Source of the DNA: Dioscorea cayenensis subsp. rotundata
Lineage: Eukaryota > Streptophyta > Magnoliopsida > Dioscoreales > Dioscoreaceae
Length of the DNA stretch: 64,000 nt
Direction of reading: 5' to 3'
Assembly: GCF_009730915.1 (NCBI RefSeq)
Contig: NC_052480.1
Coordinates: forward strand, 3,348,001 to 3,412,000
Shown here: in pieces, positions 5,878 through 33,479 of the stretch
How positions within the stretch are numbered: position 1 is the stretch's first letter
Layout of the letters: each line of letters opens with the position of its first letter
The notes under the pieces: model-generated
Seen by the model: only the letters and a program-made list of their open reading frames with translations
Told to the model about the DNA's origin: nothing
Databases searched by the model: none
Translations under genes and position numbers: made by a program

Positions 5878-5939
5878 GGCATTGTAAATAAACAATTATT
5901 TACAAAGAAAATAACTTACATGAGTGTCAACTTTTGATA

Positions 5940-6240: not shown

Positions 6241-6249
6241 TTGTATAAT

Positions 6250-8351: not shown

Positions 8352-8432
8352 ATTTGAAGGGTGTTTTTAGGGATTGCCAAGGGGGGTGTTTTTGGCAATA
8401 TTGTAAAGTTATGGGTTTTTGGTAATTTTCAC

Positions 8433-8946
8433 TTAAAAAAATACAAGCTATTGAAAAAGTTAACAATAGTCTCTAACTAAAAGAGTAAAAGTGAGTAAAA
8501 AGAAAAAAGGAAAAACTGGGTCGGCAAAAATTATTATTTGATAATAAAAACCGTTTCCGAGAGAGAAGAGGAGTAGAAAATTATATTATTATAAAAATAT
8601 ATTACCATTAATATGATAAATGAAAAGATAAATTAAAAATTATTTATTTTAAGTTTTTGATTGATCGACAGAACCACCTAAGTATCTTACTGACTTACTC
8701 TAAAATCTATATATTGAATAAGGTATAAAATATTATTATGAATATGGATTTCATGTATCGCTCCAAAGGGTGTAAGTCTAGTTATTTATAAGACTATACT
8801 ATAAGATTATAAAAATAAAATCTTGATCTTTATTAATCTTATCATTAATGATATATTTAAATCTTTAAGATAAGATTATATATCTTTGTATAAAAATTAA
8901 AAATGATATTAAATTTTTAAAAATTTAAAATAAAAATGATTATTAA
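8433..8946. other. right flank of MULE-A, unit 1
   Basis: No gene seen. It aligns with 26188-26521 plus 27566-28112 of unit 2. It carries the empty sites for three later unit 2 insertions (at about 8700 for two of them and at about 8785). Confidence 0.7.
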
Positions 8947-9592
8947 GGGGTCGTATTGTGTTTGTTATTCTATTTTTTTTTAACAATTTTTTGGAAACAA
9001 AATTGGAAAATTTTGTATTATTTTCTTAAATTATATTAATATAATTTTAATAATTTTTTATATTAGTAATATATTTTTATAAAAAATATGAAAATAATGA
9101 GATGTAAAATTTTTTTATAAATTTATATTAATGACAAAAACATGAACACATCATATATATATATATATAGATTTTTTTTTTGTGAAAATTAGGAATAAAA
9201 AAAATGAAAGGAGATTTCAGAAGAAAAATCTCAAATCACTAACCATCTTTATTTTAAATTTCCTAACTATCTTAAAAATATTACAAATAAATCTAAAATA
9301 ATGGAGAAAATAAATTTTGAGATAGGAAAAAACAAGAAAAAAATTATGAAGAAAAAAAAAAGTTGAAAATCTTGGAACATTTGTTTAAACTATGCTTATA
9401 AGAAAAGGATAGTAATTAATGTCTTTAATGTGTTAGGTTAATGTTTTGAAAACGTTTTCAAAATAGTGGAAAACATAAAAAAATTGTGTTTTTTTTTTTA
9501 AACATAGATGTTTTCAAAATTTTTGAAAACAAAAATAGTTTGTCAAACTTGGCAACAAATCTATAGATTTGGTAATAATGCCAAACCAACCC
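8947..9592. mobile_element. PIF/Harbinger-type MITE with TAA target site (unit 1 only)
   Basis: The left end reads GGGGTCGTATTGTGTTTG and the right end, inverted, GGGTTGGTTTGGCATT. TAA flanks both sides (8944-8946 and 9593-9595). Unit 2 has a single TAA at the homologous place (near 28122-28124), so this insertion postdates the duplication. The interior is A+T-rich with an imperfect GTTTTCAAAA palindrome and no transposase. Confidence 0.75.
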
Positions 9593-9794
9593 TAAACTAC
9601 CAATTTTACAAAATATATTTTTTGGGTGTTGGGATTATTGATATAACTCTTTTCGTTTATATAATTTACAAAATTAAAAATGAGTAAAATTTAAAATAAA
9701 ATAAAATAAAAATAAATGCCACAGATAAAATGATAATAAATTGAGAAAAGAGGGGAGAACTTTCTTATTTTCTGTGTTTTGAGCGTGGAAAATG

Positions 9795-12700: not shown

Positions 12701-13901
12701 CCTATTTTTCTGTTAAAATTGAGTAATACAAGGATTGTATACAAGGATTGTCTGGATAATGTTGGAAGACACTTGTACATCACATTTCCCTAGCGATGCA
12801 TATACTGATTATTTTGTGTTTGGAAGGGGATGGATCCATAACAATCATTGTCCATCCTAGACTAGGAAACATTGCTTTTACTACAAATGTGCTTTATTAT
12901 TCACTTTTATTTGTTTTCAGATAATTGTGAGGCGAGAAGAAACCTCCTTGACTCAACTGAAGATATTCTGAAGAAAGTTCGTGAAAATCCCCAGGTATTC
13001 ATCAATCAAATGTTTTCATAACATCTTTTAATATGCTTTATTTACTAACAGAAATCAGGTTTAAATGTGTTTTATAGTTCTGAAAGTTACAATCATGTCT
13101 GGGAATTAAATTGAAATCTTTTGAGATCGTTTTTTACTTTAATCGTACTGAATTGTGTCATTATACTTGTGTGTTTTTGGATATGGACTTTCTGGCAAGA
13201 TAATGCACATATCATGGTCATAGATGGCTTTGTGATGATTTTTTATTTTTTTTATTTTTATTTTTTTTTGCAGACAAACGAAAACATGGAACTTCTCTAC
13301 AGTGCATTGAAGAATATTGTCAAATTTATGGAGTATTACTGGTAAATTATTCTTTATCATTGAATAAAGGAACCTCATTGAATTGCATATGCTCATGATT
13401 GAATGTCTGTCGTGTGCTTCTTTTTCATGTTAACACTCGTCTTGGTCTGTTCCATTTAAATGATTCAATTGTATCTTCCATCTTGTAGTGTTGGATTAAT
13501 ACCTCTATTCAGATCCCTTTCATTTGACCATGCTGACATATTTTGACTACCTGCAATTATAATTTCCAAACAAGACAGAAATTCTGCTTTTTTCTCAAAC
13601 TAAAATGAAATTAACTTGATGGCGCTTCACTTATTTCTGCTAACAGAAAAAAAAAAAAACAAATTTACTTGTAAGAGAAGTTTTGTACCAAGGCTTCAAT
13701 ATATTTAGAAATCTAGAAATCGATTAGGAGATGTGCTCTCTTGCCAATATTGATGTGCATCCTTAGTGATTATACTTTCAACATTGTTCATGTTGGTAAG
13801 AAAAACTTTTGTTTGATACATTAATTTTTTTCTGATAAATTTCACATGAATTCTGAACATGGTTGGAATTTCGCTGCAGGACTAATGGTGCCCAAAAGTG
13901 A
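9795..13901 (+). pseudogene. SANT/DUF3755-like gene, copy 1 (frameshifted)
   Basis: Exons align with those of copies 2 and 4: 9795-9917, 10295-10400, 11087-11134 (shifted acceptor), 12039-12102, 12921-12994, 13274-13341, 13880-13901. Exon 1 has lost 2 nt near 9856, giving a stop at 9891 just inside the SANT-like segment. The other exons remain open and similar to copy 2 (EEIAAALPGKTILDVGLRCEWLL; ENMELLYSALKNIVKF). The last exon ends at an early TGA that copy 2 shares, losing the MPPLPV tail of copy 4. Decay looks recent because splice borders are intact apart from the ancestral exon 3 acceptor change. A downstream start could still give a short product, but I treat it as a pseudogene. Confidence 0.8.
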
Positions 13902-14108
13902 GCGGAGAAAAATGCCACTTCATGTGAAGTTGAATAAGTGACTTGCGTAGTTTATGTTGGCCAGAGTTCCAATTCATCTTATGGTGCATTATCACAGTAG
14001 GGATTACTTGTTCAAATTCTCTTGCAGATATACATTAGTTTTTTTTTTCGAATTTCCAATAAAAAACAAGTCTTTTATTGTCCAATGTTCTCATGGAATG
14101 GTTGAAAA

Positions 14109-14370
14109 TTTATGAAGCATTAATTCAAATTTAAAGTATTTCTACAACTTCCAACTAATCATATTCAAATATGTATTTTATTAAATCATATTTTAAAAAA
14201 AGATAATTTTTAAAAATTAATAATTTTTTTATAAATTATAAATTATCAATTATTATAACAAATTTTTTTTATCCAACTAAATTAATTAAAAACATTGAAG
14301 GGAGTATTTTAAATAAGGTTAATTTAAAAAAATAATATACATATATAAATAAGGTTAATTTAAAAAAATA

Positions 14371-14431
<61 letters not shown>

Positions 14432-15754
14432 TATTAACTGAATTTTTTTGGTTGAAAAAGTAACTCTAACTGATTTCATTAATCTAGTTAAAATAGATAA
14501 ATAAAAAAGATGGAGTATTTTTTTAAGAAGAGGGTAAGTATGTAAAATCATTTGTCTTGAAGGGTATTGCAGTCTTTTCATTTTGGCAATCCCTAATTCT
14601 GAGATTTAGGGTTTTCCTATAAATCTCTGAAGTTGGCCGCCCAAAGGTGAGGAAGAAAAGGCAAAGTTGAGAAGGTCTCAAGTCGTTCTCTTGATTTCAT
14701 TTGATCTCTTGTTTGTTTGATCTTTTTTTATGATTGTTTTTGATGAAAAAAAAAAAAGAAAGCCAATTTGCAGAGCAAAGGCGCCTGATCAAAGTGGTGA
14801 TAATCTTTGCATTGAAGGTTGGCGATATCAAAATCGATCTGCAATTCTCCGTGCCTCTCAAACTCTTTCTATTTTGATGATGGCCTCGAACAAATTGCTA
14901 CACCATTCTTTTATTTTATTTAAATTTTTCCTTTTTTTTTTTTTTGATCTTTTTTCTTTTCTCTGGAGGTATTGTTTCTTGTTTTTCTTAATGTGGTTGT
15001 GTTTGTGAGATTGATTATGATTTTGGCAGCAAAAACGTAGCTATTGAGAGATTTTTATCCTTATTTATTTATTTTTGGTTTAATGTTATTTTTATTTATT
15101 TCGTCTCAGCGTTTGTTTCAGTTCTATTGTTTTCAATTTTTGTTTTTTTATTTTTTATTTTTAGTTTTATTTTTTTTTTCGGTGCAAAGGTGCTAATTTA
15201 AGTGTTTGGATCTGGAATTTTTTTGAATGAATTGGTGTGTTTTTGTGGTTTTGATTTATTAATAAATATTATTGGTTTAATTAATGTGGTTATGTTTGTG
15301 AGATTGATTATGATATCGGGAGCAAAAACATAGTTTTTGAGAGATTTTTATTGTTATTTTTTGGTTTAATATTATATTTATTTATTTATTTCGTCTCTAT
15401 TTGTTTCACTTCTATTGCTTTCCATTTCTGTCGTTACTTGTAATTTTTACTTTACTTTTTTTTGGGTACAAAGTTGCTAATTTAAGTGTTTGGATCTGAA
15501 TTTTTTTTTTTGAATGAATTGGTGTATTTTTGTGGTTTTGATTTATTAATACTGATTAAAACAAATAATATTGGTTTAATTAATGGCTAAATTGATATTA
15601 AGAAAAAAAAGAAAATTAAAAGTTAAAACACAATATTATTTGTACCGAAAAAAATTATTTGTATCAATTTTTTTTTTCTGGTGAGAGACTATTATCAATT
15701 TTTTGTATGCCGTTTTTTTTGGCTTGACAGGGCATGAGTTTGGCTGGAATTAAA
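14109..15754. other. interval between duplication units; promoter-like box and a tandem repeat
   Basis: The interval is absent from the end of unit 2. A (TA)n tract lies at about 14371-14427. At 14605-14625 a telo-box-like TTAGGGTTTT is followed by CCTATAAATCTC, resembling a plant housekeeping promoter. A T-rich leader-like sequence follows, then two direct copies of about 290 bp (14988-15280 and 15281-15551). I cannot identify a gene here. Confidence 0.5.
14988..15551 (+). repeat. direct tandem duplication, about 290 bp, two copies
   Basis: Both copies begin TTAATGTGGTT, continue GTTTGTGAGATTGATTATGA and share AATTTAAGTGTTTGGATCTG later on. They are T-rich and diverged by scattered substitutions. 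Confidence 0.85.
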
Positions 15755-15866
15755 AATTTTATTAGTTATACTATTTGAATTTATTAAATTAAATTAATTA
15801 TTAAAATATTATTTAAAATAGTTAAATAGATTCAAATCTAGTGGTTAAATCAATATAGTGATGGTC

Positions 15867-16320
15867 GGGTATATATCTTGAGTGGGTACTGTACTATGGT
15901 CAATTTTCACTTTGAGCATCAAACTTTAATTTGTATCATTTCGGTTATCCAATTTCAATTTGGTTTCATTGAGCCGGTACTAAGAGATTTTTTAGAGAAA
16001 TTTAATGGCGATGCTACGAGAATTGCATTGTCAACGATGTCAATATAGTCACCTATTATGCAATTCAATGATGTCCTCGTGTACATAATAGGTGGTAACA
16101 TGGACATTGTTGATGATGTGGCATACACACATTAGTAGATGACTTCGTTAATTGCTATGGACAAGGCAATTCTGGCAACAAGATCATCAAATTCCTCCCA
16201 GAAACCTCTTGGTACTCGTCCAGTGAAACCAAAGTTTGATAACTGAAATGATACAAATTGAAGTTTGATGTTCAAAGTGAAATTTAACTATAGTATAGTA
16301 CCCACTCAAAATATTTACGA
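15867..16320. mobile_element. Mutator-like MITE with 10-bp target duplication (unit 2 only)
   Basis: AGTGATGGTC flanks both ends (15857-15866 and 16321-16330). Unit 1 has the undisturbed single site near 4570. Terminal inverted repeats of about 80 bp include TTGAGTGGGTACT and CACTTTGA..CATCAAACTT. The interior has no transposase. A related palindromic element lies at about 38362-38710. Confidence 0.85.
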
Positions 16321-17284
16321 AGTGATGGTCTGATATCTTGAACGATCTAATCTCTTAAGACATTAGGTTTTTTTTTGTGACTAGATGCTATTGCCGACTT
16401 GTGTAAAAGATTTCAACGTTTCTATTGTGAATATCACTAATAGCTGCAACCTGATTTCCCAATGCCGGTATTATTATTACTATTATTACTATTATTATTA
16501 TTATTTATAAAATAGATAAATCATGATTTTATTTAAAAAAAGTGGAAATTGCCAAAAAAACCCTTTAAGTTTGTAAAATTGCCAAAAACACCCCGTTAGT
16601 TTTGCAATCCCCAAAAACCCCCTCCTTTTAAAGTCTATGTTTTTCAAACCCCCAAACCCTGTAACGGATGTGAACGGAGTGAGTTTCAAATTTTTTGGAC
16701 GAAAATGCCCTTGCATGGGGAGTCGTGGCTGCAGCCATCTCGGCGATTTGAGAGGAAGTGGGGGGTTTTCCGTAGGGTAACCCCAAGAGACGAATTTATT
16801 GGAGCCGTTTAATTGCTTTTTCTCAACTCACGTCTTCGACTTTTTCCATTTCAGTCGTCTCCGAAGTTGTCTCTCCGCGAAGCCTCCGTAATTAGCATTT
16901 CATCGCCTTTTCCCTTTCCACCGGTATCTCGAAGGAGAAGTCCCCATGCAACTAGTTGGCATTTCATCGCTTGCAATCTAAGGTATTGAGTATGGTTTTT
17001 ATGTTAGCTGCTACATTCTAAAGAAAGATTTTTTTCGGTTTTTGCTTTTGTGCTCTGCTTTTTTGTTGGAAGATATTGAAGTCCGCAGGGGATTTCTACT
17101 GGGGTTTTTGTTAGTCTGCAGGGAGATTTCTCGGCTAGGGTTTTGTTTTGTTTTGCATTTTCAGATGATATCACCTATCGAAATAGTTTTTTTCGATTAT
17201 TATGATTTGTGTAATATTTATAATGTACATTTCCCGCTTCGTTTGATATGGTTGCTGCTTTTACAAATGAGGGTTGACGTTTAA

Positions 17285-17456
17285 GAAATGAGATGTTACT
17301 GAGTTTAACATTTGTTGTCTCTGTTTAAGTATTCTCGTCTCTGTTTAACAAAATGGGTCTCTGCTTAACATTTTATATCTCCGTTTGATAACCGAGAGTT
17401 TACCGTTTAAAAACCTTATATTTCCGCTTAAACTTTTTGTCAATACTGCAGGGCTT
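17285..17456 (+). repeat. intron array of about 20-nt units in the MULE-B protease gene (first)
   Basis: Units such as CGTCTCTGTTTAACAAAATG and GGTCTCTGCTTAACATTTTA follow each other at 20 nt (one of 24), up to an acceptor CTGCAG at 17451-17456. Confidence 0.85.
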
Positions 17457-18269
17457 GTGATTACTAGCGGTCAACCTAGTTAATGGGTGTTGCTATTTGA
17501 CACCGGTTGTGGAGACCTTAGTGAATTGAAAGTTAACACGACCCCTACATCTGGGAGATTATTCGAAGGACACCGTCTTGCGGCGTTCATCGAGCTGGAA
17601 GCCATATACCAAGAGAGGGCCCTTCTTGATTCTCTTTTTGCAAAAGTACGATGGTCGCACTAATAAATTCGGGATCGGGGAAAGCTCGCCGAGTTTCGAG
17701 ACCTCAAGATGTGGCCTCGTTCTTGGTCTCAGCGCTGATGACGGCGACGCGAGTGGTCTTCGTAAGAAGAAAACCAGGTCCGCGTCGAAGGCCGTGATCT
17801 ATCAAAGACCCACGAGAGCACGGAGACTCCATCAAGAGCACCTCGGTGCAACTTGTTCGGCATGAGGGAGAAGAAGATAATTTTGTCAAACTCCCGATGG
17901 TGTACCTCACGGGGACAGTCCCTCTTCCCAAATACATCATGCTCGGTTCGAACTCGGATCGTTGATTACGTCGATGATCTACCAGCCCATGGGGCGATCA
18001 CGCATGGGCGCAGCGACGCATCAAGTGGCTTATGGAGGATATTCCAGCGGCCGCCCGGAGTGCAAGATAGATCGCTACGGGAAGAAGACTAACACATGGT
18101 ACATTAAGGGTTGCTCGGTCGGCTTAACGTCCCTGGTTTTTACGAGATGACCGGAACGGGAAGAAAGTCCGCTTTCGAAGATCCCAAGGATGCTGTGTCT
18201 ACGGTGAAAGTACTTACCCGAAGCAAGCGACGGTAGAAAACGAGCTTGTCATCGCTCGATGGAAAAAGA

Positions 18270-18475
18270 GGTAATAAATCATGGACAATGTCTCAACATA
18301 AGTCTTTAATGTTTAAACATTTTTATTTAGCGTTTAACTTTAGTATTTACCGCTTTAACTATTATTCATAACCGCTTTAAATATTTTTGTTCTCCGCTTT
18401 AATTATATTCTATAACGCTTTAAATATATAGTTTTTTTATAGTTTAAAATGAATGATCTCATCTGAAATTGTTTG
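18270..18475 (+). repeat. intron array of 21-nt units in the MULE-B protease gene (second)
   Basis: Five consecutive units of exactly 21 nt carry the core CGTTTAA or CGCTTTAA (for example TAACCGCTTTAAATATTTTTG). The extra T in the CGCTTTAA core accounts for the 21-nt rather than 20-nt spacing. Confidence 0.85.
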
Positions 18476-19719
18476 GTTTACATATGTTAGTTTCTGAAAT
18501 GGTTCCCGTGAATCGTCGAAGAAGAAATATTTGTTGGCGCCCAACCGAGCGGATGGATGCCATTGCTCCCGAACCACTTGCTCGAAGGCGGGATGAGAGG
18601 CGACCTCTATCGCTGCGCTGGACGCCCGTTCTCCCTACTTCCACCCCACCACGCCAAGACGCATTCATCGACGCCGAGAAGCCCTCCCCTACCCCGGCAG
18701 ATTGCAACAACCCCCTACCACGACAACGATGCCCCCCGACCACTGGCAGCCCTCCGACCGTGGCAGATGCACCACGTAACATTAGGGCGAAGATGTCACC
18801 AGCAACTCTTACGCAGTCATGCGAGATATTGACGATCGAAGTTTCCTCGGCTTGCCGCTCGTGGAGGCGCTGGAAGGGACGTTTCACAAATCGGTCGCGC
18901 CATCCCTCGAAAAGAACCGAAAGCACCCGGACGAACGAGGCGTCGGAATTTAGCGACGACGACATCATCGGAAGGTCGTTCCAAAGGCGGCCACATTCGA
19001 AGAGACTTGCGAAAAAGAGGAGAACAATCGCCTCGTCTCCACCGCGTGCCGACGATGAAACAATAGCAACACCATCGGCGGTCGATCGTCATATCGAGTC
19101 TGCGCCGTTGATGACATGGCTACGACGGCTGGAGGACATCAGAGATGATGTGGCCGCTGCGCAGGTTGAGAAGGTCGCTGACTCTCTTCTCGATGAAATC
19201 GCCGACCCGGTGGAACCTGTGCCGAGATCATGGCGATCAAAGATGGACACAATCCCCAAGGTCAAGAACAAGTTAAGGGTGTGTCTCCCAATGATCGTCG
19301 TTGTCATGGCCACGGTTGAGAAGATCGTCGAATCCGTTGCGTGGCGTGGCCGGCATGACGCAGCCCAAGCAGGACACAATCCCACCACAACAAGAACCAT
19401 GTAAGGAAGTGTCTGCGGTTGATGCTCGTCGCCGTCGTCCCTCAAGATCGAGCCGGGACACAATCCCACAACAAGAACAACAATGTAAGGACGTGTTCTG
19501 CAGCTGATGCTTGCCGCCATCGCTCCCCGCGATCGAAGGAAGATGTCGATGAAGACCCCGACCGAAAGCAACGAGAGATGATCAAGGCCAATCAAAAAAA
19601 TTGGACCGACTGCTCGGAAAGCTTTTTATTCAAGAAGAAGAAATGGGTTGGCTCGAGTCGTTTTAACAAATACGAGCAGGAGTTGATGAGGATCTTCCTC
19701 AACCGCTCTACTGGACGGG

Positions 19720-19920
19720 TAAGTGTAACGCTTTTTATGATATTGTTTAAAGAGTTTCTCATAGTGTTTAACTATTACCTAATAGTGTTTAATACCATTA
19801 TGTTATCATTTAAGTTTTCGCCTTACCGCTTTAATTATATATAATATCATGTAACAATTGATAATATCATTTAAATATTTACAATATGGTCTTCTAATAT
19901 CCAGTTATCGTTTAACCTCA
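19720..19920 (+). repeat. intron array of 20-21-nt units in the MULE-B protease gene (third)
   Basis: Nine or so units from a GTAAGT donor onward have TTTAA cores at 20-21 nt spacing (for example CATAGTGTTTAACTATTACC). Coding similarity resumes after about 19925. Confidence 0.85.
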
Positions 19921-20737
19921 AGACCGCATCGTGTGGAAGAACGACGTCGCAGACCACACGCTGACGAGGTTATACACTGCGCTGAGGGGAAGGAGATGGT
20001 CATCGATGATGTGATGGACGCCTGTATGCATAATACAAAAGTCGCCGAGCAAAGAGCCATATCCTTACAAGAAGCGCGCTCCATCATCGGATCAGCTTGC
20101 TGCTTTATGTCAAAGCGGGGACGACGACATGACACATGATTATGGCTATGATCGGGGATGCCGTGCAGACTCGCATGAAGTTCAAATTGTCATCCTCCGA
20201 TAATCATGAATGGCCACTTCCATGTCGGTCGTCCCCGGACAATGATAAACAAGAGTATATGCATTATTCTTCATGTCCGGGGTACGATAAGGACGCGTTG
20301 GACATGGTAAGTTCTTTAATTATGTCCTATTAATATCTGCTTTGGTATTTAAATCGGTATTCTAATCTCGACTTGCATATCTCGACAGATGAATCTATTC
20401 GACCTTTCGTGCCGATATGGAGTTTGGCGAGTCGGCTGCACGAAAGTACCCGCTCGTGCACGACACGAAACCCCACGCCAAAAACAAGGAAGCGCCAATT
20501 GCGCCGCCTACGCTCATGCGGTTTATCGAGCAATTACCGTGGGGTGAGAAGTTACGGCCACCGCAGACAGGGACGTTCCTTACCTCGGGATTACGGTATG
20601 TTACCCGCGATACTTAAGGAGGGAGAGCGTAAGGCGTCCATGACAAAGGGGGTCGTCACAAGCTGGGTTAAATTGTTTTGAATAACATGTCTTAGTATAT
20701 CCGATCGTCAATTTTGTTTTCAAATGTAAATCTGGAC

Positions 20738-21300
20738 AAATTCAATTCATTGTTTTCGTGTTCAAGAACATGACTTGTATATCTTAATGTAAATTTTGTT
20801 TGTTTTTGAATTGTAAAAGCGGGTTAAATTCCATTCGGTTTTTATTTCATTGTTTAATTTACGTTGTGATTGTGTACATTTCACTTTCATTGTATAAATA
20901 TAGTATATATCGTTTAAACATCAGTTTTAAATATTTCAAATTACGGTGTACCCGTTTAAAATAACACTTTCTCTGTTTAAATGAATGCACTTATTGTTTA
21001 ACTAAATACGGAAAGTTGCCCATCAATACACAATTCAATTCATTGTTTTTTTGTTTTCGAAAGAACATGACTTGTATATCTCAATGTAAATTTTGTTTGT
21101 TTTTCAATTGTAAGGCGAGGTTAAATTTCATTCGAGCTTTCATTTCATTGTTTAATTTACGTTGTAGTTGTGTACATTTCCGTTTCATTGTTTAAATATA
21201 CCATATATCGTTTAAACATCAGCTTGAAATATTTCAAATTACAGATGTATCCGTTTAAAAATAACAATGTCTCCGTGTAAATACATTCAATTCGTTATAA
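20738..21300 (+). repeat. direct duplication, about 290 bp, between the convergent MULE-B genes
   Basis: Copy 1 starts near 20740 and copy 2 near 21027. Both contain AACATGACTTGTATATCT, then AATTTACGTTGT and ATATATCGTTTAAACATCAG. This is the shared 3' region of the two convergent genes. Confidence 0.85.
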
Positions 21301-21894
21301 ATACACAATGTTTCCCTGTCATCGCTCGGTTTATTAACAATGCCTAGTCGGCGACGTTTCATTACAAGATCGCTCGATCGTGACCGGATCCTCGGCGGCA
21401 CTGCAATGTAACTCGTGGACATCAAACGCTCGCGACTCGATCCTCTTTCGCTCTAGGCCGCCCAGTCGCCTTCTAGTCAGCAGTGCGTCAGAACGAAGCT
21501 CACGATTTCCGTCTCGAAGGCCTGTCATCGTCGGGTATGGGGAATATAGCTTCCTTGTATGCCAGTTTGTAATTGTCGACGGTGAAGTACCCGCTCATAA
21601 ATCGATGTACGTTGGTGTCTGTCTGCATTATTGCTGCGCAAGCATGTTTGCAAGGGATACCATAAACTTGCCACCTTCGACGCGAACAAGTTCTCGATGG
21701 CGAGATCCACGGAGTTGCTGCGATTGGTCGATCACTCGTAACGATCATCGACACAACGACCAACACGAAGATTTCGGGTACGTCCCTCAACAATGATCTC
21801 TAACTTCGAATGTATGTCGGGCATAAGTAGGGTCTCCCATTTGGTCGCTTGCTCACGCCGGGTTACATAACATGCGCATCAACTCGAACTCGCA

Positions 21895-22065
21895 AATAAG
21901 GTTAAACAAAGACGGTGATGGTTAAATAATTCATCAACATGTTTAAACATTATTGTAATTAAATAAACGAAATTATTAATATTTAAAGTCGGAAAAAGTG
22001 TAATTAAACAAAGATTGAGAATGTTTAAAGGGTAATACTAAATGTTAAGTGTAAATCAACATTCG
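21895..22065 (-). repeat. intron array with TTTAAACA core in the MULE-B transposase
   Basis: Units with GTTAAACAAAGA, ATGTTTAAACA and similar cores lie about 20 nt apart, between the SWIM exon and the catalytic exon, in transposase-sense orientation. Confidence 0.7.
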
Positions 22066-23384
22066 CAGACCTTATGGAGTCGACCATTTTTCGTCACCGG
22101 GTAAATGACGAGCTTCCTTGATCCAAGCATTGAACGACTCCACGACGTTCGAATACATCTCACCCCAACGATCACCTCCGAACAGATAATTCGACCAATG
22201 TGCCATATCCGATTTATTAATCAACCAATGATGAGCTTCGGGTGATATGGCCTGCAGTTCATTCACGGTATCATCGAAATCTTTAGCCGTGGATGCCCAC
22301 GCAATGCGGAAGCATATAGACCGAAAGCACTCCTCCCTCAATGCCTTCCCAAGTCCGACATTGGCTTTTCATAAAATTGGCCTCCAAATGTCGAAGGCAG
22401 ATGACGCATGTGGCGAAGAAGGGAAGACTCTCGCAATTGCGCTCACAAGGCCCTTGGACTCGTCCGACACGAAGGTAATTATCTCATGATAATCTCCACC
22501 CTCGTATAAGGCATCGCCCAACTTAGATATGAACCAAGTCCAATTGGCATCGGTCTCGTTGTCGACTATACCGAAGGCGACGTGGAAAAAAACCATTGTT
22601 ACCATCTTTCCCCTGCTGGCACCCGATGAGTGTACCCCGATATTTTTCCAAGGAGGTGGGTACCATCGAGAAAGCAAAGACGGCCCGCAAGCCCTCTTGA
22701 ATCCCACAATACACGCTGCCGAAAGAAAAGAATGCACGCTTTAAAACGATCACCGTCTCTCTCCACGATCGCAACGCCGCGGGATTTGTCTCGACCCACC
22801 TTTATCCACATACCAAAGCAAACAGATCATAGCTGGAGATGTCATCGCTGCGTCGAGGACCACCCGGGCATGCTCTTTTTCCCAACCAAGCCTCGCTTGT
22901 ATGGTATGTGGACACCATGTTCCCGCAACATGTCCTTCCCGAATGTCGATGGCCTTGTACAAGGGACGGTCCTTGAGCTTCTGAATCACTCGTGCGCTAA
23001 CCCATTTTTTGGACGCTTTCGGATGTGACGCCGAACCTATGCCACCACCGCAAGTGTGTGACGGGTTGATTGTCTTGATTCTGAAAGTATTTTTGTTATA
23101 CTCTTTTGATGCATGAAGGCGCCAACGACAACCATCGGCAGCGCATTCCACAGTCACCCGATGTTTTTCGTTCTTTATGAATTTGAAGTCAAAATTCCTT
23201 TTGATTGCATGATTTCGAAGTACATCCCTGAAATGTTTGACACCGTCAAAACGTTGACCAATATCCAACGACAACACTTCAGAATGATCTGACGAGGAAG
23301 GAAGACATCCCACACCGTCAGGGTCACCATGGGGATGAATGGGAGCACTCGCAGAATCTGAATTCCTGCCAACACTTCAGTCAA

Positions 23385-23571
23385 ATGAAAAGATCAATAT
23401 GTTAAGCGGAGAATATAATGTTTAAGCGATAATGACAATAGTTAAACGTTAAATTAAATACTTAAACAATTAACTAATAACGTAAAGGACTAGTACAATA
23501 TGTTAACCAGTGACGGACATATTTAAACAATAATGACCCCAGACAACTGAAATAATTAAAAGAAAAGGAAC
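23385..23571 (-). repeat. intron array of eight 20-nt units in the MULE-B transposase
   Basis: On the minus strand, after a GTAAGT donor, eight successive units are each exactly 20 nt. They include TTATTGTTTAAATATGTCCG, TTTAACGTTTAACTATTGTC, ATTATCGCTTAAACATTATA and TTCTCCGCTTAACATATTGA. The last unit leads into the acceptor TTGGCAG. This is the clearest example of the periodic intron. Confidence 0.9.
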
Positions 23572-24099
23572 TTACAACGAGTAAACCTCGTTTTCATTAG
23601 GATTCGGCAATGGCACATTTTCTGTCTCGACGACAAGATCAACTACAGCACATTTGAAGATGGAGTGGACGTGACACATCCGATGGAAGTCAACATCGTT
23701 TTCTATTGGGCAAACCGTTTTATATCCATCTGGTGTGATGAACTTAACCCTGACAAGAGAAACTTCGAGACCCCATCGCTCACATATCTCAGCTAACACC
23801 AATTCCCAAGAAGTCTGAGCCGTGAACATTAGCACTCTTCCCTCCCCGTTGAATCTAGCAATACCACAAAAACTCTCCATAATATATCGGTCGAAAACCA
23901 AATCGATACAAAACCAAATGAAATGAAGAACAAAACGAAGACGACGAAGAAGAAGTAGAAGATGTAAAAGTACAAACAAAGCAGTCGAATCGCAAACAAA
24001 AAAGTGCACAGTTGTATGCATAGAAGTTAGATTAGACGTGATGTGATTGGGCGGTATTTTTCCCTCCATCCCAAGGGCAAAAAGGGAAATATATGTCAT

Positions 24100-25965
24100 T
24101 GTCGCGAGGAAGACATGTTGTCATCGTTCGAATGAAAGTTCTCAACTCAACATGAGTCTCTGTGTAAACGTCAAGCTTTTTATGTTTAAACAGATACATA
24201 TAGTGTTTAAAATAACGGTTAACCTGCTTTAACTAAAAGTCTATATCATGTAAATAATATGTTATTGTTTAAATTGAATGCTTTTCATCGACAACGCTGC
24301 TGCTAGATGGGTACCTCCCGGGTCACTGCTTTAAACATATTTACGTATTTTTCTTAAACACCGTTGTCGTTGTTTAAAGAGTAACTCGAGTATTGTTTAA
24401 CTTTTTCTATTGTTTACAATGACGCCTTTTTGTTTCCCACATTGTTTTTTTACTAGGTCTCCTGTTTAAATTTCGAAGTTCACATACAACACGATTGTTT
24501 CGCTTTTATTTATAAAAGATTTACAACATTTTACAACATTTACAAAGATTTACAACATTTACAACATTTACAAAGATTTACAACATTTACAACATTTACA
24601 ACGTCCGCTCGGACTTTTGGACACTCACGACTCGACCCTCGTGATAATCGAAACAAGTGTCTCAGACATTCGAATGCTCACGGCGTCAGATAACAAGCGC
24701 ATCAACTTGAACCCGCAAAACGCATACAACATTAAAAAGGTTAAACAACACACATTCATGAAAAACGACTATTAATCAATGTGTCAGTGGTAGGACTTAA
24801 ACGATCGATCCCGATAGTTAAACACGTAACGTAATAGCTAGTACACCCGACGCCATTTTTCTTAAACGTTAACGTAAAAGTCTCAGTGGTAAATGTCAAC
24901 CCTCGTCTTAAAAGGATGTTTCACGATCTCCTCCTCTAGAGAATCCTCCGCAATCACGCAATACGTGAAAACTTTCTTTTTCATACCCAAGTCGAAATGC
25001 TCTCTTAATTGCTTTCCCGTCATCCATCACTGGAGAATCCTCCGTGATTCGTGCATTATGAGAGGACTTCGGCTCAGGTGAGAAAAAGATAGTTTAACTA
25101 GTTCGGTGATTACGGCTAATCGATTCTCAAGATAAGGAAGAAGGCTCACGAAACATCCTTTCGGGATAGAGTGGTTGTCCATGGGAAGAGGAGGAAGAGG
25201 AGGAGGAGGAGGAGGAGGAGGATGATGAGGACGACGAGGAGTGGTCAGTCCATGGGGAGGGTTCTTCCCGGTTATTTATGGTGTGAAGTCCACAAGCGGT
25301 CGACTCTTCAGATCCGAGAAAAAAGTTAAACGCACAGTCGCCGACATCGATCGATGAGAACGAACGGGTGTTCGGGAATGTATATTACGCGCATAAGAAT
25401 TAATGCCGCCATTAATTCTACGCACGGGATACCATAACCTCGCCACCGCCACGCGCCACATGCCAACAATTCAGATCAAACGAAAAAGATCACCGCTTTT
25501 ACGCAGAGACTTTGAGAATTTACACGCTTTATGAATAGTTATACATGTAAAGATAATGTTAAACGGAGATGGGAAGTATTAAACGGATATGACAATTATT
25601 AAACATATTAGTAAAAATATTTAAACGGATAATAGCAAATAGTTAAACATTATTTAAAAATATACAAATAGATAACCATAAACGAGAAGAACTTTACAAC
25701 GAAATGAACTCGTCGTAATCATCGCTCTTCTCGTCAGTAATACAACTTTACAACCATAAACGAGAAGACGACAATGGCACATGCTCGCCTCGACAATAAA
25801 AATCGACTACGACTCATTTCGAAGATGAAGTGCACTCGACCAATCCGATGGAAATCAATTTCATTTTCTGCTCGAGAAACCGATTTATATATTTCGGGTA
25901 TGATAATGAGGAGAATAACAAGATGTAATGTAACTCCTTGGCATTGTCTATCAGAAACCAAGCGA
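24100..25965 (-). pseudogene. second, deleted MULE of the same family fused to MULE-B
   Basis: The stretch contains plus-oriented TTTAAA repeat units (24140-24480), the tail of a protease gene side. It also has a C-terminal transposase stretch with SWIM-like similarity (about 25240-25480, matching 21560-21700), and a second PB1-like exon remnant (about 25690-25960, matching 23572-23760). The stretch is followed directly by the right terminal repeat. It is best read as a separate element that lost its left half and middle, joined at about 24095. Confidence 0.6.
24515..24604 (+). repeat. TTTACAACA minisatellite
   Basis: The 9-10-bp units TTTACAACA and TTTACAAAGA alternate about nine times inside the second MULE remnant. 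Confidence 0.9.
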
Positions 25966-26524
25966 AAAGCCCTTCAAAAGGTTGAACACGATGTGATTTG
26001 GCGCTTTCCTTTCCCACCATTTTTCGGGGCCAAAAATGGGATTTCACAACATGGACCCATTTGAAGTGAACGGTAGGGGGTAAAAGGGAAGTTAAACACT
26101 AACGGAAGGGCTGTCCGTGGTGTGTAAAAGTAGGAGGGGGTTTTTGGGAAGTTTTGAAAATTACGAGGGGTGAACAGTAATTTTCCCTTAAAAAAAATAA
26201 AGAAAAACAGTACAAGTTAAAAAACTGCATAGAAAAAATTGATAATAGTCTCGCAAAAAATGAATTAAAAAAAAAAACAAAAATAACAGGAGCCGGAGGA
26301 AGAAAAAGCAGAGTCGATAAAAATTACCATATGATAATAAAAGCCTTTTCGAGCAGAGAAAAAGAGCCTTTTCAAGTCGAGAAGAAAAAGAGCATAAAAC
26401 TATGTTATTATAAAAATATATTACCATTAATATGATAAATGAAAAGATAAATTAAAAGTTGTTTATTTTAAAGTTTTTTTATTGATCGGCAAAACCATCC
26501 AAGTATCTTACTGACTTACTTTAA

Positions 26525-27236
26525 GATTGTGTTTGATTGCCAACATGGAAAATGACTGGAAAAAAAAAATTCCATGGAATATTTTTCCATAGAAAAATTT
26601 TATATGGAAAATAAAAAAAAGTCGTTTGATTAGGATTATTTTCTAGCTAGAAAATAAAAAAAAAAAAATCAGATTTTGTTGTTTGATTGCTCTTATCTCT
26701 CCATGGAAAAAACCTCGTATGATTGCATCAGTTTTCCCTCGAAAAAATTCACATTTTTCATGGAAATTTTTTTAAAAACTATTAAAATTAATCATCAAAA
26801 CGTCGCGAGATCTGTTATAAATTTATTTAAAATATTATCAACTTATATAATTTATTTTTTTAAAAAAATTAAAAAGAAAAGAAAAAACTTTTCTTTTAAT
26901 TTTTTTTAAAAAGTTATTTTAAAATTATAAAGTGGAATTGAATCTTACCATCAAAACGTTGCGAGATCTGTTCACTGATTTGGATAAATTTATTTAAAAT
27001 ATTATCAAGATATATAATTTATTTTTTTAAAAAAAATTTTTAAAAAAAAAGAAAAAAAATTTCTTTTAAATTTTAAAAGAAAATTTATTTTAAATATTTC
27101 AATTGTATGTTATTTTTTCACATAACCTTACGTTTTTCCTGGAAAAGTGAAAAAAAAAATTTTGGCAAACAGACTATTTAGCTAGAAAATGACCGTGGAA
27201 AATTTTTCTAGAAAAAAAAGATAATCAAATACAGCC
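26525..27236. mobile_element. PIF/Harbinger-type MITE with TAA target site (unit 2 only)
   Basis: The ends GATTGTGTTTGATT and, inverted, GGCTGTATTTGATT are bounded by TAA on both sides (26522-26524 and 27237-27239). Unit 1 has the empty site CTCTAAAATC near 8699-8708. The interior holds direct repeats (ATCAAAACGT..GCGAGATCTGTT twice near 26790 and 26950) and no transposase. Confidence 0.85.
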
Positions 27237-27245
27237 TAAAATCTA

Positions 27246-27565
27246 TCTACAAAATAGTCCCTGTACTTTTCTTTTTCTTCTCTTTTGGTCCCTCTATTAA
27301 AAAATACTTCCGACTAGTCCCTCTACTTTTGAAAATGTGCTCACTTAGTTAAAAATGCTCCCAACCAGTCCCTCTACTTTTAGAAATGTGCCCACTTAGT
27401 CCCTCTAAGTGGGCACATTTCTAAAAGTAGAGGGACTGGTTGGGAGCATTTTTAACTAAGTGTGCACATTTTCAAAAGTAGAGGGACTAGTCGGGAGCAT
27501 TTCTGAGTAGAGGGACCAAAAGGGAAGAGAGAGAAAAGTAGAGGGACCAACTAGGGTATTATATC
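27246..27565. mobile_element. near-perfect palindromic Mutator-like MITE, copy a
   Basis: The two halves are inverted copies meeting near 27400. The central arms of 33 bp around GTGCCCACTTAG are perfectly paired with a 5-nt centre. The flanks TAAAATCTA and TAAAATATA fit a 9-bp target duplication, single in unit 1. The left end has diverged from copies b and c. Confidence 0.8.
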
Positions 27566-27630
27566 TAAAATATAGTTATGAATATGCCTTTAATGTATCG
27601 CTCCCACGGGTGTAAGACTAGTTATTTATA

Positions 27631-27956
27631 GGTATAATCACCAAAATAGTCCCTGTACTTTTCTCTCTCTTCACTTTTGGTCCCTCTATTCAAAAATGCT
27701 CCCGACTAGTCCCTCTATTTTTTAAAATGTGCTACTTAGTTAAAAATGCTCCCAATCAGTCCCTCTACTTTTAAAAATGTGTCCACTTAGAAGGACTAAG
27801 TGGGCACATTTCTAAAAGTAGAGGAACTGGTTGGGAGCAATTTTAACTAAGTGGGCACATTTTCAAAAGTAGAGGGACTAATCGGGAGTATTTCTGAGTA
27901 GAGGGACCAAAAGGAAAGAGAGAGAAGAGTAGAGGAACCAACTAGGGTATTATACC
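27631..27956. mobile_element. palindromic Mutator-like MITE, copy b
   Basis: The ends are GGTATAATCACC and, inverted, GGTATAATACCC. TTATTTATA is duplicated exactly on both sides (27622-27630 and 27957-27965). Unit 1 has one TTATTTATA near 8785. The body is the same palindromic family as copy a. Confidence 0.9.
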
Positions 27957-28324
27957 TTATTTATAAGACTATAACATAAGATTATAAAAATAAAATCTTG
28001 ATCTTTATTAATCTTATCATTAATGACATATTTGAATCTATACGATAAGGTTATAAATCTTTGTATAAAAATTATAAATGACATTAAATTTTTAAAAATA
28101 TATAATAAAAATGAGTATTAAACTGCCAATTTTATAAAAATATATTTTTTTGGGTATTGGGATTATTTATTTAGCTCTTTTCGTTTATTTGATTTATAAA
28201 ATTAAAAATAAGTAAAATTATAAATAAATAAATAAATGCCATAATAGTTATTTTGGAATAATTTTTTTTTCTCACTTTATAGTAGAGAATAGAGGAAAGA
28301 ACTTTCTTATTTTCTGTGTTTTGA

Positions 28325-28334
28325 GCGGGGAAAA
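28325..28334 (+). promoter_or_regulatory. E2F-like site before SANT copy 2
   Basis: GCGGGGAAAA just upstream of the start codon fits the degenerate E2F pattern on the opposite strand. Copy 4 has the canonical GCGGGAAA at the same place, and copy 1 has lost it (GCGTGGAAAA). Function is inferred only. Confidence 0.35.
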
Positions 28335-28336
28335 TA

Positions 28337-31300
28337 ATGGCGACGAGCGGTGATCCATCGAGACCTCAACCTGGAACCGCCGCTGGAGGTGGTGGTATTC
28401 CGGCACACGGAGTAGTGTGGACGACCGAGGAGGATGAGATCTTGAGGGAAGGTCTCGAAAAGTGATTGTTTTTTCTTTCTCCCTTTTGGATTTGAATGTT
28501 TTCTTGTTTGTTTCTTAATAGACTACTTGTTTTTAGATGTGGAGTGATTAAAAATCAAGATGTTGGCAAGTTGATGTTTGTGTGATGATTGGTACTGGTT
28601 TTATTGTAATGATTTAAGGGGTGATGAGGTTTATGAGTGTTAGAACCGAACCATGGTTTTGTGATTTATGATTCATGACTGGTGCTGGCTGTGGTTGATA
28701 CATTAATGAACAATTTACATTAACTGTTGTTTCCTCATGATTTTGCGAAAACGGATGTCTTTTCTGGTCATGCTACTTGAATTTAATAAGCTTTGATGAG
28801 CAATATGTGAAATCTATTTTGATGATCTTATAAATTTCTAGGCACTACCAGAATCCCACTCTTGCCGCATGTGAGGAAATTGCAGCAGCATTGCCTAGAA
28901 AGACAATCCTCGATGTGGGCCTGAGGTGTGAATGGTTGTTGGTGGCAGTAAGTATTGATGACTTGCTAGCTCTGCTTTTAGCCTATGCTAATTCATGCTC
29001 ACTGTACTCATGGCTGCATATGTGCAAATAGTTCATCAAGCATTCACAAATTTGACATAGATGACTTCCATTCTATGAGCCTACCGATTTAATATTTGAG
29101 CATGGGGGAATGTCAACTGTAAAGACATTTTGGAAAAATCCCACTGATTTGCTAACTATGTTAAGTTGACTTAGCATGCCCAAATATGCTAATGATGGAG
29201 TTTATGGAGAAAACTGTATAATTCAAAAGATTTATTTCCCTTTTTCCTCCATTCTTGTGTATAGGTTGTTTTGAAGGTCAATAGTTTGTTGCTCTTTTTA
29301 TGTATTGAGTAACAATTACTTTTTATTTTTTAATATTTGTTTAATGGATGCTTGTAGATAACATAGCATCCTGTATAGCTAAGTGAGATTTTATGTAAAC
29401 TGAACTAAGAATAGCCTACCATTGTTGTAGTGTTGGACCATGTTACTTGAATATGTTTAGCGTAAACAATTTTTGAGAAACCACCTTTTTCTCTCAATTG
29501 CACTAACTTGTCTTGCTTTTGTTTTGTTTACTAACAAAAGAAAGCAAAAAGAAAACTAGAGATGGCCATTGCATTTCAATAATAAATTGTGTCAAAAAGG
29601 TTAGTTGATCATATTTTGGATGCACACATTTCTATTTGTAAAGATTTTGTGTTTCTGCGTGCTATATATCTAAAACTGCCCAGTGTAGTTGAGTCACATG
29701 GTGTAATGTTCATTTCAAACTTTGATAGTTTGATGGGGAAAGAAAGAAAACTTAACTTGAGTTTGTTTCTTCGATATTTTGGCAACTCCTAAATATTAAG
29801 TTCTGGATATCTTAGTGACTTATACAGGTCTTTAGTAGAGAGAAAAATAAAATAAAATAAAATAAAGACCAATAGATGTCTGTAAATATGGACCTTGCTT
29901 TAAAATGTCTTTATCTTTGGTATCCTCATCACAGATATTTGTCAACTCTTTCATGCATATATGTATATATATTTCTCATATTCTTTTTCTCTACGTAAGG
30001 TATAAGATTCATTAGGTAAAATATTATGGCCTTGGCAATTGAAGTCTGAATTGTGTGCACAAGTTACTGGCTTACTGCTATGCTTAAAACCATTCTTGGG
30101 ATGAGTCACTTGGATGTTTCAAACAAAATTTTGTCAACTGGGCAACCCAATTTGAAGAGATGGGAGCACTGGTAATGAAGAAGTTTGAAACCAAATCAAT
30201 GGCATCTATTGTTCATCATGTGCAAAATGCTACCACGTTTGAAGTTAACATGGCAACAGACCTTTCAAACTGTTATGTCAGCTAGAAACATTTATTTTGT
30301 GGAAACCATGCACCTGACTGGGAAAATTGGATATTCTCAAAGAAAATGATAGTTAACTGTTTTTTTTTTTGTAAAAAAAAATATACTTGAAGTGATTTCA
30401 AAATCTTGCATGCATTTATGATGTTATAATATTGTTGTTTTTCTTCTCAGAAATGTCAGCCAACTATAAAGTGATGAGAATTTGATCTTCTTGTTGCAGG
30501 AAAAAATCACAGATCTCTCAAATTATCACATGTTGCGGCCATTAGCAATGTCTAGTGAAGGTATTAATGCAGATAGAGGTTTGATGGTTTTCTTCTTCCT
30601 TCCATCCATTATATTCCAATATAATCAAGTGAACCATTCATATTTTTCATAATTAAAATAATATCATATTTATTTGGCAGAAAATTTTCTTTTCTCGTCT
30701 CAGACATGGGTCTTAGATTTGATGAGGTTATTGATGCGGGCAAAAAAGGTAAACGGGTATTTTTGATGTAGGGTATCATTATTTTGATAATCAAACAACA
30801 CATCTGCAAGAGAGTCTCTTGTATAAAGAAAGAAATATAGTGAAGCTCAATTAAATTTTTCTCTTATAACTTAAATAGCTAAAAGCTATTAGTTCTAGTT
30901 CATAAAATACTTAATTCCTCATTATAATAGATTAGTAGTTTGTCAAACCGCTCCATAAATTCACTTGAAGAACTAAACAATAGCATCAACTAATATAATT
31001 TATGTATGCAGTAGGTAAATCAGAACAATGAAATTCGAAGATGGGCTGATATATGATTAGTTTCAATCTGAAAAGTATACTAAAACATAGGTGTCAAGCA
31101 TCACTAAATTGATATGCACGTTTGTGAAGCATAGCTGAAGGCAGTGGGATCCTATTTTTCTGTTAAAAATGAGTAATACAAGGCTTGTCTGGATAATGTT
31201 GGAAGACACGCTTATACATCACATTTCCCAGCGATGCATATACTGAGTATTTTGTGTTTGGAAGGGGATGGATCCATAACAATAATTGTCCATCTTATTT

Positions 31301-32514
31301 TAGGAAACATTGCTTTTGCTACAAATTTGCTTTATTATTCACTTTTATTTGTTTTCAGACAATGGTGAGGCGAGAAGAAACCTCCTTGACTCAACTGAAG
31401 ATATTCTGAAGAAAGTTCGTGAAAATCCCCAGGTAATCATCAATCAAATGTTTTCATAACATCTTTTAATATGCTTTATTTACTAACAGAAATCAGGCTT
31501 AAATGTTTGTATTAGTTCTGTAAGTTACAATCATGTCTAGGAATTAAATTGAAATCCTTTAAGATCTTTTTTGACTTTAATCATATTGAATTGTGTCATT
31601 ATATTTGTGTGTTTTTGGATATGGACTTTCTGGCGAGATAATGCACATAGCATGGTCATAGATGTCTTTGTGATGTTTTTGCAGACAAACGAAAACATGG
31701 AACTTCTCTACTGTGCATTGAAGAATATTGTCAAATTTATGGAGTATTACTGGTAGATTATTCTTTATCATTGAATAAAGGAACCTCATTGATTTGCATA
31801 TGCTCATGATTGAATGTCTGTCTTGTGCTTCTTTTTCATGTTAACACCCATCTTATAGTCTGTTCCATTTAAATGATTCAATGGTATCTTCTATCTAGAT
31901 CCCTTTCATTTGACCATGCTGACATATTTTTGGGAAAGAGGAGCGGGGCGAACCCACTAAAGACCCAGTGACGCGCATGCCCTCGCTGGAATAAATGGGG
32001 ATGGGGCCGCGCTCACATGGGCGCTGGAATCACCCATACACAACCACTATTCACAACTCCCAGAAATGTGCCCTCAGCCGAGAATCGAACTCTCACCACT
32101 CGGTGAGAGCTCTATCGTCGACCCGTGTACCAATAGACCCAAAGGTCGTTGGTACCATGCTGACATATTTTGACTACCTGCAATTATAATTTCCAAACAA
32201 GACAGAAATTCTGCTTTTTTTTTCTCAAACTAAAATGAAATTAACTTGATGGCGCTTCACTTACTTCTGCTAACAGGGAAAAAAAAAAACAATTTACTTG
32301 TAAGAGAAGTTTTGTACCAAGGCTTCAATATATTTAGAAATCTAGAAATCGATAAGGAGATGTGCTCTCTTGCCAATAGTGATTATACTTTCAACATTGT
32401 TCATGTTGATAAGGAAAAATTTTGTTTGATGCATTAATTTTTTTCTGATAGATTTCACATGAATTCTGAACATGGTTGGAATTTCACTGCAGGACTAATG
32501 GTGCCCAAAAGTGA
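28337..32514 (+). CDS. SANT/Myb-like, DUF3755-type protein, copy 2 (short form)
   Basis: Exons 28337-28461, 28842-28947, 29552-29599, 30500-30560, 31359-31432, 31685-31752 and 32493-32514 join in frame to about 167 codons. The product has a Gly-rich N-terminus, a SANT-like segment (VVWTTEEDEILREGLEK, then AALPRKTILDVGLRCEW) and a helical segment (ENMELLYCALKNIVKF). This matches plant DUF3755 proteins such as Arabidopsis At3g07565, an assignment made from memory. Compared with copy 4, the normal exon 3 acceptor is lost; the in-frame AG at 29550-29551 would restore splicing, or exon 3 could be skipped in frame. A 2-nt shift in the last exon brings an early stop, removing the MPPLPV tail. It may be an expressed shortened paralogue or an early pseudogene. 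A SINE sits in intron 6. Confidence 0.55.
31931..32153 (-). mobile_element. tRNA-derived SINE in intron 6 of SANT copy 2
   Basis: An 18-bp target duplication (ACCATGCTGACATATTTT) flanks the element exactly. Copy 1 has the uninterrupted site near 13527. On the minus strand a B-box-like GAGTTCGATTCTC and an upstream A-box-like region are visible. The 223-bp body is GC-rich, unlike the surrounding intron. A worn relative lies at 61395-61480. Confidence 0.85.
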
Positions 32515-33479
32515 GCAGAGAAAAATGCCACCACGTCATGTGAATTTGAATAAGTGACTTGCGCAGTTTACGTAGGCCGGAGTTCCAATTGATCTTATGG
32601 TGCATTATCACAATAGGGATTACTTGTTCAAATCCACTTGTAGATATACGTTGTTGTTGTTTTTGCCAATTTCCAAAAAAAAAACAAGTCTTTTATTGTC
32701 CAATGTTCTCATGGCATGGTTGAAAATTGACGATGAAGATAACAAATCTTTCTCAATAATGTTCTCTTTTTATTTTTTAATTCTTACTTAACTTAAGTTT
32801 GTCTTGTATTTTTAGTAAAAATTGTTTTAGGATTATCAAAATAATCATGAAAACACAGGGAGATTAAATTAAAATTTAGATATGCATGTTATTGTTTTTA
32901 TTTGTATGTATTTTTGTATATGAATTTCTAAATTTAGGGAGTAAAACAAAATCAGTTTCGAATCCTTGAATTGTAATTGTCACCAGCTGATTAATTCACT
33001 ATGCCTACCTCATCTAAATCAAGAAAGGCTCTCATGGATGCACTAAATATTTTTCCATAAATTAAAACTTTTAATTGAAAAAAATAGTTGCAACTAAATA
33101 GGACAAAAATAAGGCTATGATAGTAATTTCATTTTCTTTTTAATCTCTGGCTTTCAACTAAAAATTGTTTATTAAGCATGACTATATAATTTAAAAAATC
33201 TAAAATTTTACTCGTGTAATTTAAATGCCTCAATGGATAAATGTTTGATTTTTGACTAATCTCTTTATACTTATCAATTCTCATGTTAATAATAATAATT
33301 CTAATTTCAAATAATTTTTTTTATTTTAATAATAATTTTTTTAAAATATTGGGTTAAAAAAGATATTTAAATAATTATAAAAGAGATGAGGGTTAAACTA
33401 AAAAAATATTTTAAAATACCCAGTCAGTCAGCACGCATATGCTGACTGGCCATTGATGTGATAGTCATCTTATGGACGG
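32515..33479. other. tail downstream of SANT copy 2
   Basis: No gene is seen. Parts recur after MULE-0 (3885-3970) and after the fragment at 41860 (42270-42420), marking the right edge of the ancestral unit. A 9-bp hairpin CAGTCAGCA/TGCTGACTG lies near 33426-33450. Confidence 0.6.

Follow-up and report, generated by a model that had tools for sequence, protein, structure and literature searches.

MULE-B, an element in the genome of the yam Dioscorea cayenensis subsp. rotundata, is a member of a group of MULEs that pair a transposase with a convergent gene of the DUF1985 (VANC) type. Judged from sequence, the 20-nt blocks repeated through its non-coding DNA probably serve a VANC-type anti-silencing system as its targets in DNA; the arrays are spaced at two turns of the helix and built on a word private to each family. 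The window, i.e., the whole stretch of 64,000 nucleotides that was analysed (C10:3348001-3412000, within a searched genome of 584 Mb), contains three related MULEs, MULE-A, MULE-B, and MULE-C, whose features are collected in Table 1. A sequence-only reading had divided one intron of the MULE-B transposase into eight successive 20-nt blocks with a TTTAA-type core, and had suggested a class of introns made of such modules.

Table 1. Features of the three MULEs in the window (PWM, position weight matrix of the MULE-B unit)
Feature	Position	Strand	Evidence or remark
MULE-C transposase intron, 20-nt array, core TGTGTA(A/T)TAT	2905-3141	-	z 6.7
MULE-A transposase-intron array	5559-5703	+	PWM/autocorrelation (training array)
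MULE-A intergenic array, nine minus and two plus hits over score 7	5934-6237	-	PWM
MULE-A Ulp1 (Peptidase_C48) C-terminal exon	6258-6536	-	PF02902 E 1.9e-5, 25 bits, cut-off 20.7
MULE-A gene-2 intron array	6667-6849	-	PWM (part is training array)
Left 9-bp target-site duplication TTAAAAAAA	16533-16541	.	
MULE-B, whole element, 9,646 bp	16542-26187	.	Ends common to unlinked copies; identical 9-bp flanks
Gene-2 intron 1 array, six units	17296-17438	+	PWM (training array)
Gene 2: DUF1985 (PMD-like) region, variable region, Ulp1-like C-terminal region	17550-20617	+	tblastn from L036
Gene-2 intron 2 array, seven units	18304-18454	+	PWM (training array)
Gene-2 intron 3 array, eight units	19738-19922	+	PWM (training array)
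Two intergenic runs: 20845-21008 (six units), 21143-21287 (five units)	20845-21287	+	PWM
Transposase gene, MuDR DNA-binding domain (23077-23268), MULE domain, SWIM	21334-24120	-	Ends inferred from open frames
Weaker array, second transposase intron	21895-22037	-	3 sites, 0/300 shuffles
Transposase intron, GTAAGT..TTGGCAG, 210 nt, predicted	23366-23575	-	GT..AG and two open frames joined in phase
Phased array in that intron, six units	23395-23535	-	Held-out PWM
Array upstream of transposase frame, mostly antisense to transposase	24177-24476	+	PWM
Run of four units beside decayed second first-exon copy, near right end	25552-25655	-	PWM
Right 9-bp target-site duplication TTAAAAAAA	26188-26196	.	

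The 20-nt repeat in the interval 23385-23571 is real by two measures, autocorrelation against shuffles and a held-out motif model. The best autocorrelation lag among lags 5-60 is 20 (49% matches, z 4.9), a peak that none of 500 dinucleotide shuffles reaches; the next best lag is 33 (z 3.7), and after it comes 40 (z 3.5). A 20-column PWM, built from five other arrays with the intron at 23366-23575 held out, places six sense sites in that intron at spacings of 20, 41, 20, 20, and 20 nt, and no site on the antisense strand; none of 300 shuffles gives six. Of the eight blocks originally described, the repeating units stand, but their number falls to about seven recognisable phases, one of them degenerate and six scoring. 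The proposed GTAAGT/TTGGCAG intron itself is supported by GT..AG and by the reading frame, with predicted bounds from 23575 down to 23366. The consensus of the unit is TTTTACTG-TTTAA-ATATTTT; it is directional and has the core YGTTTAA.

A similar pattern had been claimed for four further intervals, and is borne out in each. No shuffle among 500 matches the signal at lags 19-22 in 5540-5710 (z 5.4), 17285-17456 (z 4.6), or 18270-18475 (z 4.2, at lag 21). The weakest is 19720-19920, where z is 2.85 and the signal is reached by 0.4% of shuffles for lags 19-22 and by 12.8% when all lags compete; the eight phased motif units found in it belong to an array of the PWM training set. Both the comparison with shuffled controls and the presence of the pattern in other copies of the family had been named beforehand as points on which the claim could fail; the former favours the pattern, and the latter was found. 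Autocorrelation alone also flags simple repeats (e.g., L071 2039-2247 and window 5056-5211), and motif and phase were therefore relied on together.

The shift to a 21-nt spacing, which had been ascribed to a T gained by the core, is likewise real, with core pairs at 20 nt (13), 21 nt (12), and 22 nt (5); in one aligned array, other copies are without the additional base before TTTAA. Among 89 core pairs separated by at most 65 nt, the distance is 20-24 nt in 34, 40-45 nt in 29, and 60-65 nt in 22, with four elsewhere and none at 10 or 30 nt. In B-DNA, distances of 20-24, 40-45, and 60-65 nt correspond roughly to two, four, and six helical turns. With one unit every 20-21 bp, i.e., two turns, the sites would therefore face one side of the helix, and this phasing without pairs at 10 or 30 suits a helical arrangement. 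Units inside one array differ from one another, while core and phase persist.

MULE-B is one of many copies. At least 40 places in the genome, the window's own among them, match the intron with an identity of 95% or higher, among the best 40 of 1,047 candidates. End pairs were sought for 11 elements, five of which gave none; of the six elements with both ends, among them the one in the window, five have a perfect 9-bp duplication when slight offsets of the ends are tolerated. The two ends of MULE-B are alike over about 10 bases, and are not paired by any inverted repeat of at least 25 nt. A decayed second copy of the first (PB1-like) transposase exon lies at 25734-26100, inside the right end. 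Outside the element, short tandem-repeat units occur in the same order to its left (8250-14400) and right (26430-33000), with repeated pairs at, e.g., 8615/26434, 12147/30605, and 13706/32335, suggesting two copies of another element. Further tandem duplications are found at 27250-27954, 34496-35000, and 35291-35693, with units of 391, 251, and 203 bp.

As for the genes, the transposase frame is broken in places, and matches PF03108 (E 2.1e-23) and PF10551 (E 4.1e-9), both over cut-off. Gene 2 is frameshifted in the window, and 17550-20617 is presumed to be a single gene. Open frames of locus L036 align with it by tblastn across the frameshifts, with E 1.7e-22 over the DUF1985 part and 7e-35 over the variable part, and the L036 protein is over cut-off for both PMD (PF10536, 9.5e-14) and DUF1985 (PF09331, 4.5e-10). 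Pfam gives no match on gene 2 of MULE-B or on two sister copies (L023, L011); the DUF1985 assignment is made because of DUF1985 loci elsewhere, and the partner gene is thus established for the family, not by a Pfam match of the window copy. Peptidase_C48 passes the cut-off only in the MULE-A copy; it is below cut-off in the MULE-B counterpart, and no match was found in the DUF1985 elements L069 (3901-6000) and L071 (4801-6000). From their order and strand, DUF1985 and C48 would form one protein. A comparison by sequence with the PDB gave no relevant match. The match of the L036 protein to the plant mobile domain (PMD) lies at L036 1378-2124; PMD occurs in the Arabidopsis silencing factor MAIL1 and is related to proteins of Gypsy-type elements, according to the excerpted source (PMC6419827).

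Of 56 sites at score 9 in MULE-B, none falls in 4,444 bp of exon, as set from open frames and tblastn. All 56 belong to the non-coding DNA, which measures 5,202 bp, and three training arrays account for 21 of them. They form eight separate runs of at least three units, in both orientations and with one directional core. The 37.8 kb to the right of the element hold 78 scattered sites with one run, and 8400-16541 to the left holds 19 with none. The two intergenic runs lie beyond the inferred ends of both convergent genes, in a region (20640-21250) with 11 plus-strand sites against 1.06 in shuffles and no PWM site on the minus strand. Upstream of the transposase, 24121-24600 contains five plus-strand sites at score 9 against 0.75 in shuffles (0/300) and two minus-strand sites, a number that 12 of 300 shuffles reach; the sole run of three, 24198-24279, is antisense to the transposase, and some of the cores here are palindromic and score on both strands. 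Because units lie beyond the gene ends and upstream, the arrays are not an intron class, and that interpretation is rejected. The sequence-only reading had missed the arrays outside introns, and also that an intron of MULE-C has the same period with another core.

The same locations weigh against arrays that act in RNA, either as splice enhancers or as small-RNA templates for methylation of the element by the host, which we consider very unlikely. Such a role fits poorly with arrays beyond both gene ends and with those, mostly antisense, upstream of the transposase; the phasing suits a helical arrangement, and 24-nt siRNAs are not known to need a 20-nt unit. All eight intronic arrays listed for the window are nonetheless in sense orientation, which an RNA-level role would also predict, and VANC targets overlap RdDM targets in Arabidopsis (PMC10398659, as excerpted), so that an siRNA contribution is conceivable. 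The binding-site arrays envisaged by the earlier reading were right in spirit, while sites in RNA that define splicing are weakened.

The two other MULEs in the window extend the comparison. MULE-A is a truncated relative at about 4800-7000, with borders that were not found. MULE-C has its transposase on the minus strand and runs off the left end of the window, directly beyond which its partner DUF1985 gene is located (in L069). Its layout resembles that of MULE-B, with the same 20-nt period on both genes and a core of its own: the intron at 2905-3141 has TGTGTA seven times on the minus strand, and L069 has two further arrays with the TGTGTA(A/T)TAT core downstream of the DUF1985 exon, in stretches that are presumably introns. 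MULE-C contains 32 TGTGTA against 6.4 in shuffles, 16 TGTGTA(A/T)TAT against 0.1, and 6 GTTTAA against 7.8, whereas MULE-B contains 56 GTTTAA against 9.1 and 7 TGTGTA against 3.8. By element, GTTTAA and TGTGTA(A/T)TAT are thus private motifs of their families, with two classes in all.

A common transposon family in whose non-coding DNA a functionless 20-nt unit chanced to expand would offer a neutral account of the arrays, and has in our view only a slender chance of being correct. Slippage does create tandem arrays, and a comparison of copies shows no significant excess of conservation overall in the A/T core columns (2.9% against 3.7%, p 0.094). Core conservation is mixed, and positions 9, 11, and 12 vary little between copies; gain or loss of whole units between close copies is weak (17, 21, 21, and 42 among seven gaps of at least 10). 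Neutral expansion fits poorly with eight separated runs that share one directional core in both orientations, with a sister family that has the same period and another core on both its genes, and with units that diverge inside an array while core and phase persist.

Genome-wide, a triple of GTTTAA at 19-21 nt spacing has 12,560 matches against 23 for the reversed motif (overlapping triples counted), and at 24-26 nt spacing it has 11, several of them in simple repeats; for TGTGTA at 19-21 nt the numbers are 1,475 and 81. Among the first 100 GTTTAA places listed, all on C1, 14 of 18 clusters have at least two separate arrays, as expected because elements carry several. A search for DUF1985 found at least 150 places. 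Among the best 150 of these matches and the best 150 to MuDR, 25 DUF1985-MuDR pairs lie within 12 kb, where 0.9 would be expected at random placement, a model that ignores the clustering of transposons; 20 of the 25, among the matches listed, are convergent and 2.5-9.8 kb apart, as in MULE-B. A further stretch of 7 kb, L072, has dense GTTTAA arrays at 2906-4210 with 29 plus-strand GTTTAA, and none of the queries for transposase, DUF1985, and C48 matched it; L072 may represent a non-autonomous derivative that uses the GTTTAA word.

For 28 DUF1985 loci (8 from the search output, 20 picked from ranks 9-61), an alignment and tree gave four clades, which we named I-IV. In clade I, a 20-nt array precedes DUF1985 at all 12 loci (z 4.9-8.7, 0/200 shuffles each), and GTTTAA occurs 2-7 times in 11 of them, the twelfth (L068) having TTTAAA-type units. 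Clade II, with which the MULE-C DUF1985 groups at a support of 0.997, comprises seven loci; the 540 bp analysed at each contain one to four copies of TGTGTA but lack GTTTAA. TGTGTA is also present 0-2 times per clade-I stretch, and the contrast near DUF1985 therefore rests on GTTTAA, which is private by clade as well. Clade II shows only weak periodicity beside DUF1985 (z 2.0-3.3, reached by 6 to 77 of 200 shuffles), and clear TGTGTA arrays appear further along in the two loci covered by a longer stretch, L030 and L032. The L071/L030 element, with a convergent transposase, has TGTGTA arrays on the DUF1985 side only, and its transposase intron has none. In the clade-II loci L051, L055, and L060, the first 540 bases in gene orientation give a weak signal at a lag of 25 nt (z 3.9-4.2). 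At the five clade-III loci and at L059, DUF1985 is present while the stretch covered has no 20-nt array, and the DUF1985 domain alone is therefore no predictor of such arrays. The three clade-IV loci have a short 27-nt unit instead, at 2.4-2.7 copies (TRF) in two and with z 4.3 in the third; in gene orientation, tandem 27-nt units lie at L063 1-66 and L062 21-93.

Arrays that serve as binding sites of the MULE transposase, for strand transfer or self-regulation and not for anti-silencing, are also unlikely in our judgement. Subterminal repeats bind the transposase in other plant transposons. In MULE-B, sites that are directional, dense, and contained in the element would fit, as would the MuDR DNA-binding domain of the transposase. 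The runs are, however, spread over 17296-25655 across internal introns and intergenic DNA and not gathered at the ends, as subterminal transposase-binding repeats would be. The private cores follow the DUF1985 clades, although transposase and DUF1985 gene may have had a common history. The 12 MuDR loci examined divide evenly: six have a 20-nt array (L041-L043, L045, L047, and L048), as transposase binding would have it, and six (L037-L040, L044, and L046) have none at z 4.5 within 3.2 kb, which speaks against it. Five of the latter six have open frames of 596-747 aa, and L037 has a lag-24 signal instead, its periodicity being strong at 24 and 48 nt (z 9.2 and 8.7).

The VANC-type interpretation draws on Arabidopsis, where sequence-specific anti-silencing by transposons is known from the VANDAL elements. 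VANC has DUF1985, and its targets are short motifs, tandemly repeated in one orientation, that lie in introns, intergenic DNA, and terminal non-coding regions and differ between VANDAL families, as the excerpted source describes (PMC5735166); VANC binds its motif and induces loss of methylation (PMC5735166 and PMC10398659, as excerpted). As for VANDAL21 (Hiun) with VANC21 and VANDAL6 with VANC6, MULE-B combines a transposase with a DUF1985 gene, and has a short directional motif in tandem repeats in non-coding DNA that differs between sister families. The orientation of its arrays is also as in VANDAL, yet the upstream array and the intergenic array of MULE-A hold a few opposite sites. The VANDAL words, YAGTATTAY and AGTTGTCC/AC, differ from the MULE-B and MULE-C cores. 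Identity with the VANC21 or VANC6 word is rejected, since neither is enriched (2 against 3.6 expected, and 2 against 2.65), which private words would predict. Unlike VANDAL with VANA, VANB, and VANC, two convergent genes were found in MULE-B, where no third gene was noticed, and its gene 2, unlike VANC, also matches PMD and continues into an Ulp1-like region. The strict 20-21 bp phasing of MULE-B has no counterpart described for VANDAL in the excerpted source (PMC5735166). MULE-B and MULE-C are likened to VANDAL from sequence, whereas the function of VANC was shown in Arabidopsis. Two meeting reports refer to unpublished structural work on VANC21 that points to co-evolution of the protein and its target (PMC8756742 and PMC12859917, as excerpted).

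Other plant MULEs share parts of this layout. Kaonashi elements are Ulp1-carrying MULEs, and resemble MULE-B by description only, in having an Ulp1-type protease gene. MULE-Solanaceae_1 and MUDR-type plant MULE clades have, like MULE-B, a 9-bp duplication and a SWIM domain, and a PMD gene antisense to the transposase; some are, as MULE-B, without terminal repeats, and the excerpted source reports no arrays or motif for them (PMC6446971). In the parts of the open-licence PMC literature consulted, no report of such arrays was found outside the genus Arabidopsis. A broader proposal, which we put forward only tentatively and regard as unlikely, is that a large non-Arabidopsis clade of plant MULEs uses helically phased, family-private DNA addresses, with thousands of array matches per genome, and readers in which DUF1985/PMD is joined to an Ulp1-type SUMO protease. 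Here the array would tether the protease, removal of SUMO from silencing factors would constitute the anti-silencing, and host PMD proteins would be relatives of the reader.

For the VANC-type system itself, the arrays, their spacing, their absence from the exons as set, the private cores, and the linkage to DUF1985 are the observations from which we infer a course of four steps, with the DUF1985 protein as the presumed reader of the word. The DUF1985 protein would recognise the private core of its family, and the phased array would then allow cooperative, density-dependent occupancy that makes a short word specific. The bound protein would strip silencing marks over the element, as VANC21 does in Arabidopsis. 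The arrays would expand through slippage or unequal exchange and would drift in step with the protein, which would finally give each family a word of its own.

The specificity of a short word may come down to phased spacing. The yam genome has sister families with the same layout and two-turn spacing and with different private words, and its at least 150 DUF1985 places and over ten thousand phased-triple matches would amount to a natural experiment on the joint change of a protein and its DNA word. The families would also supply pairs of address and reader with which chromatin state could be directed.
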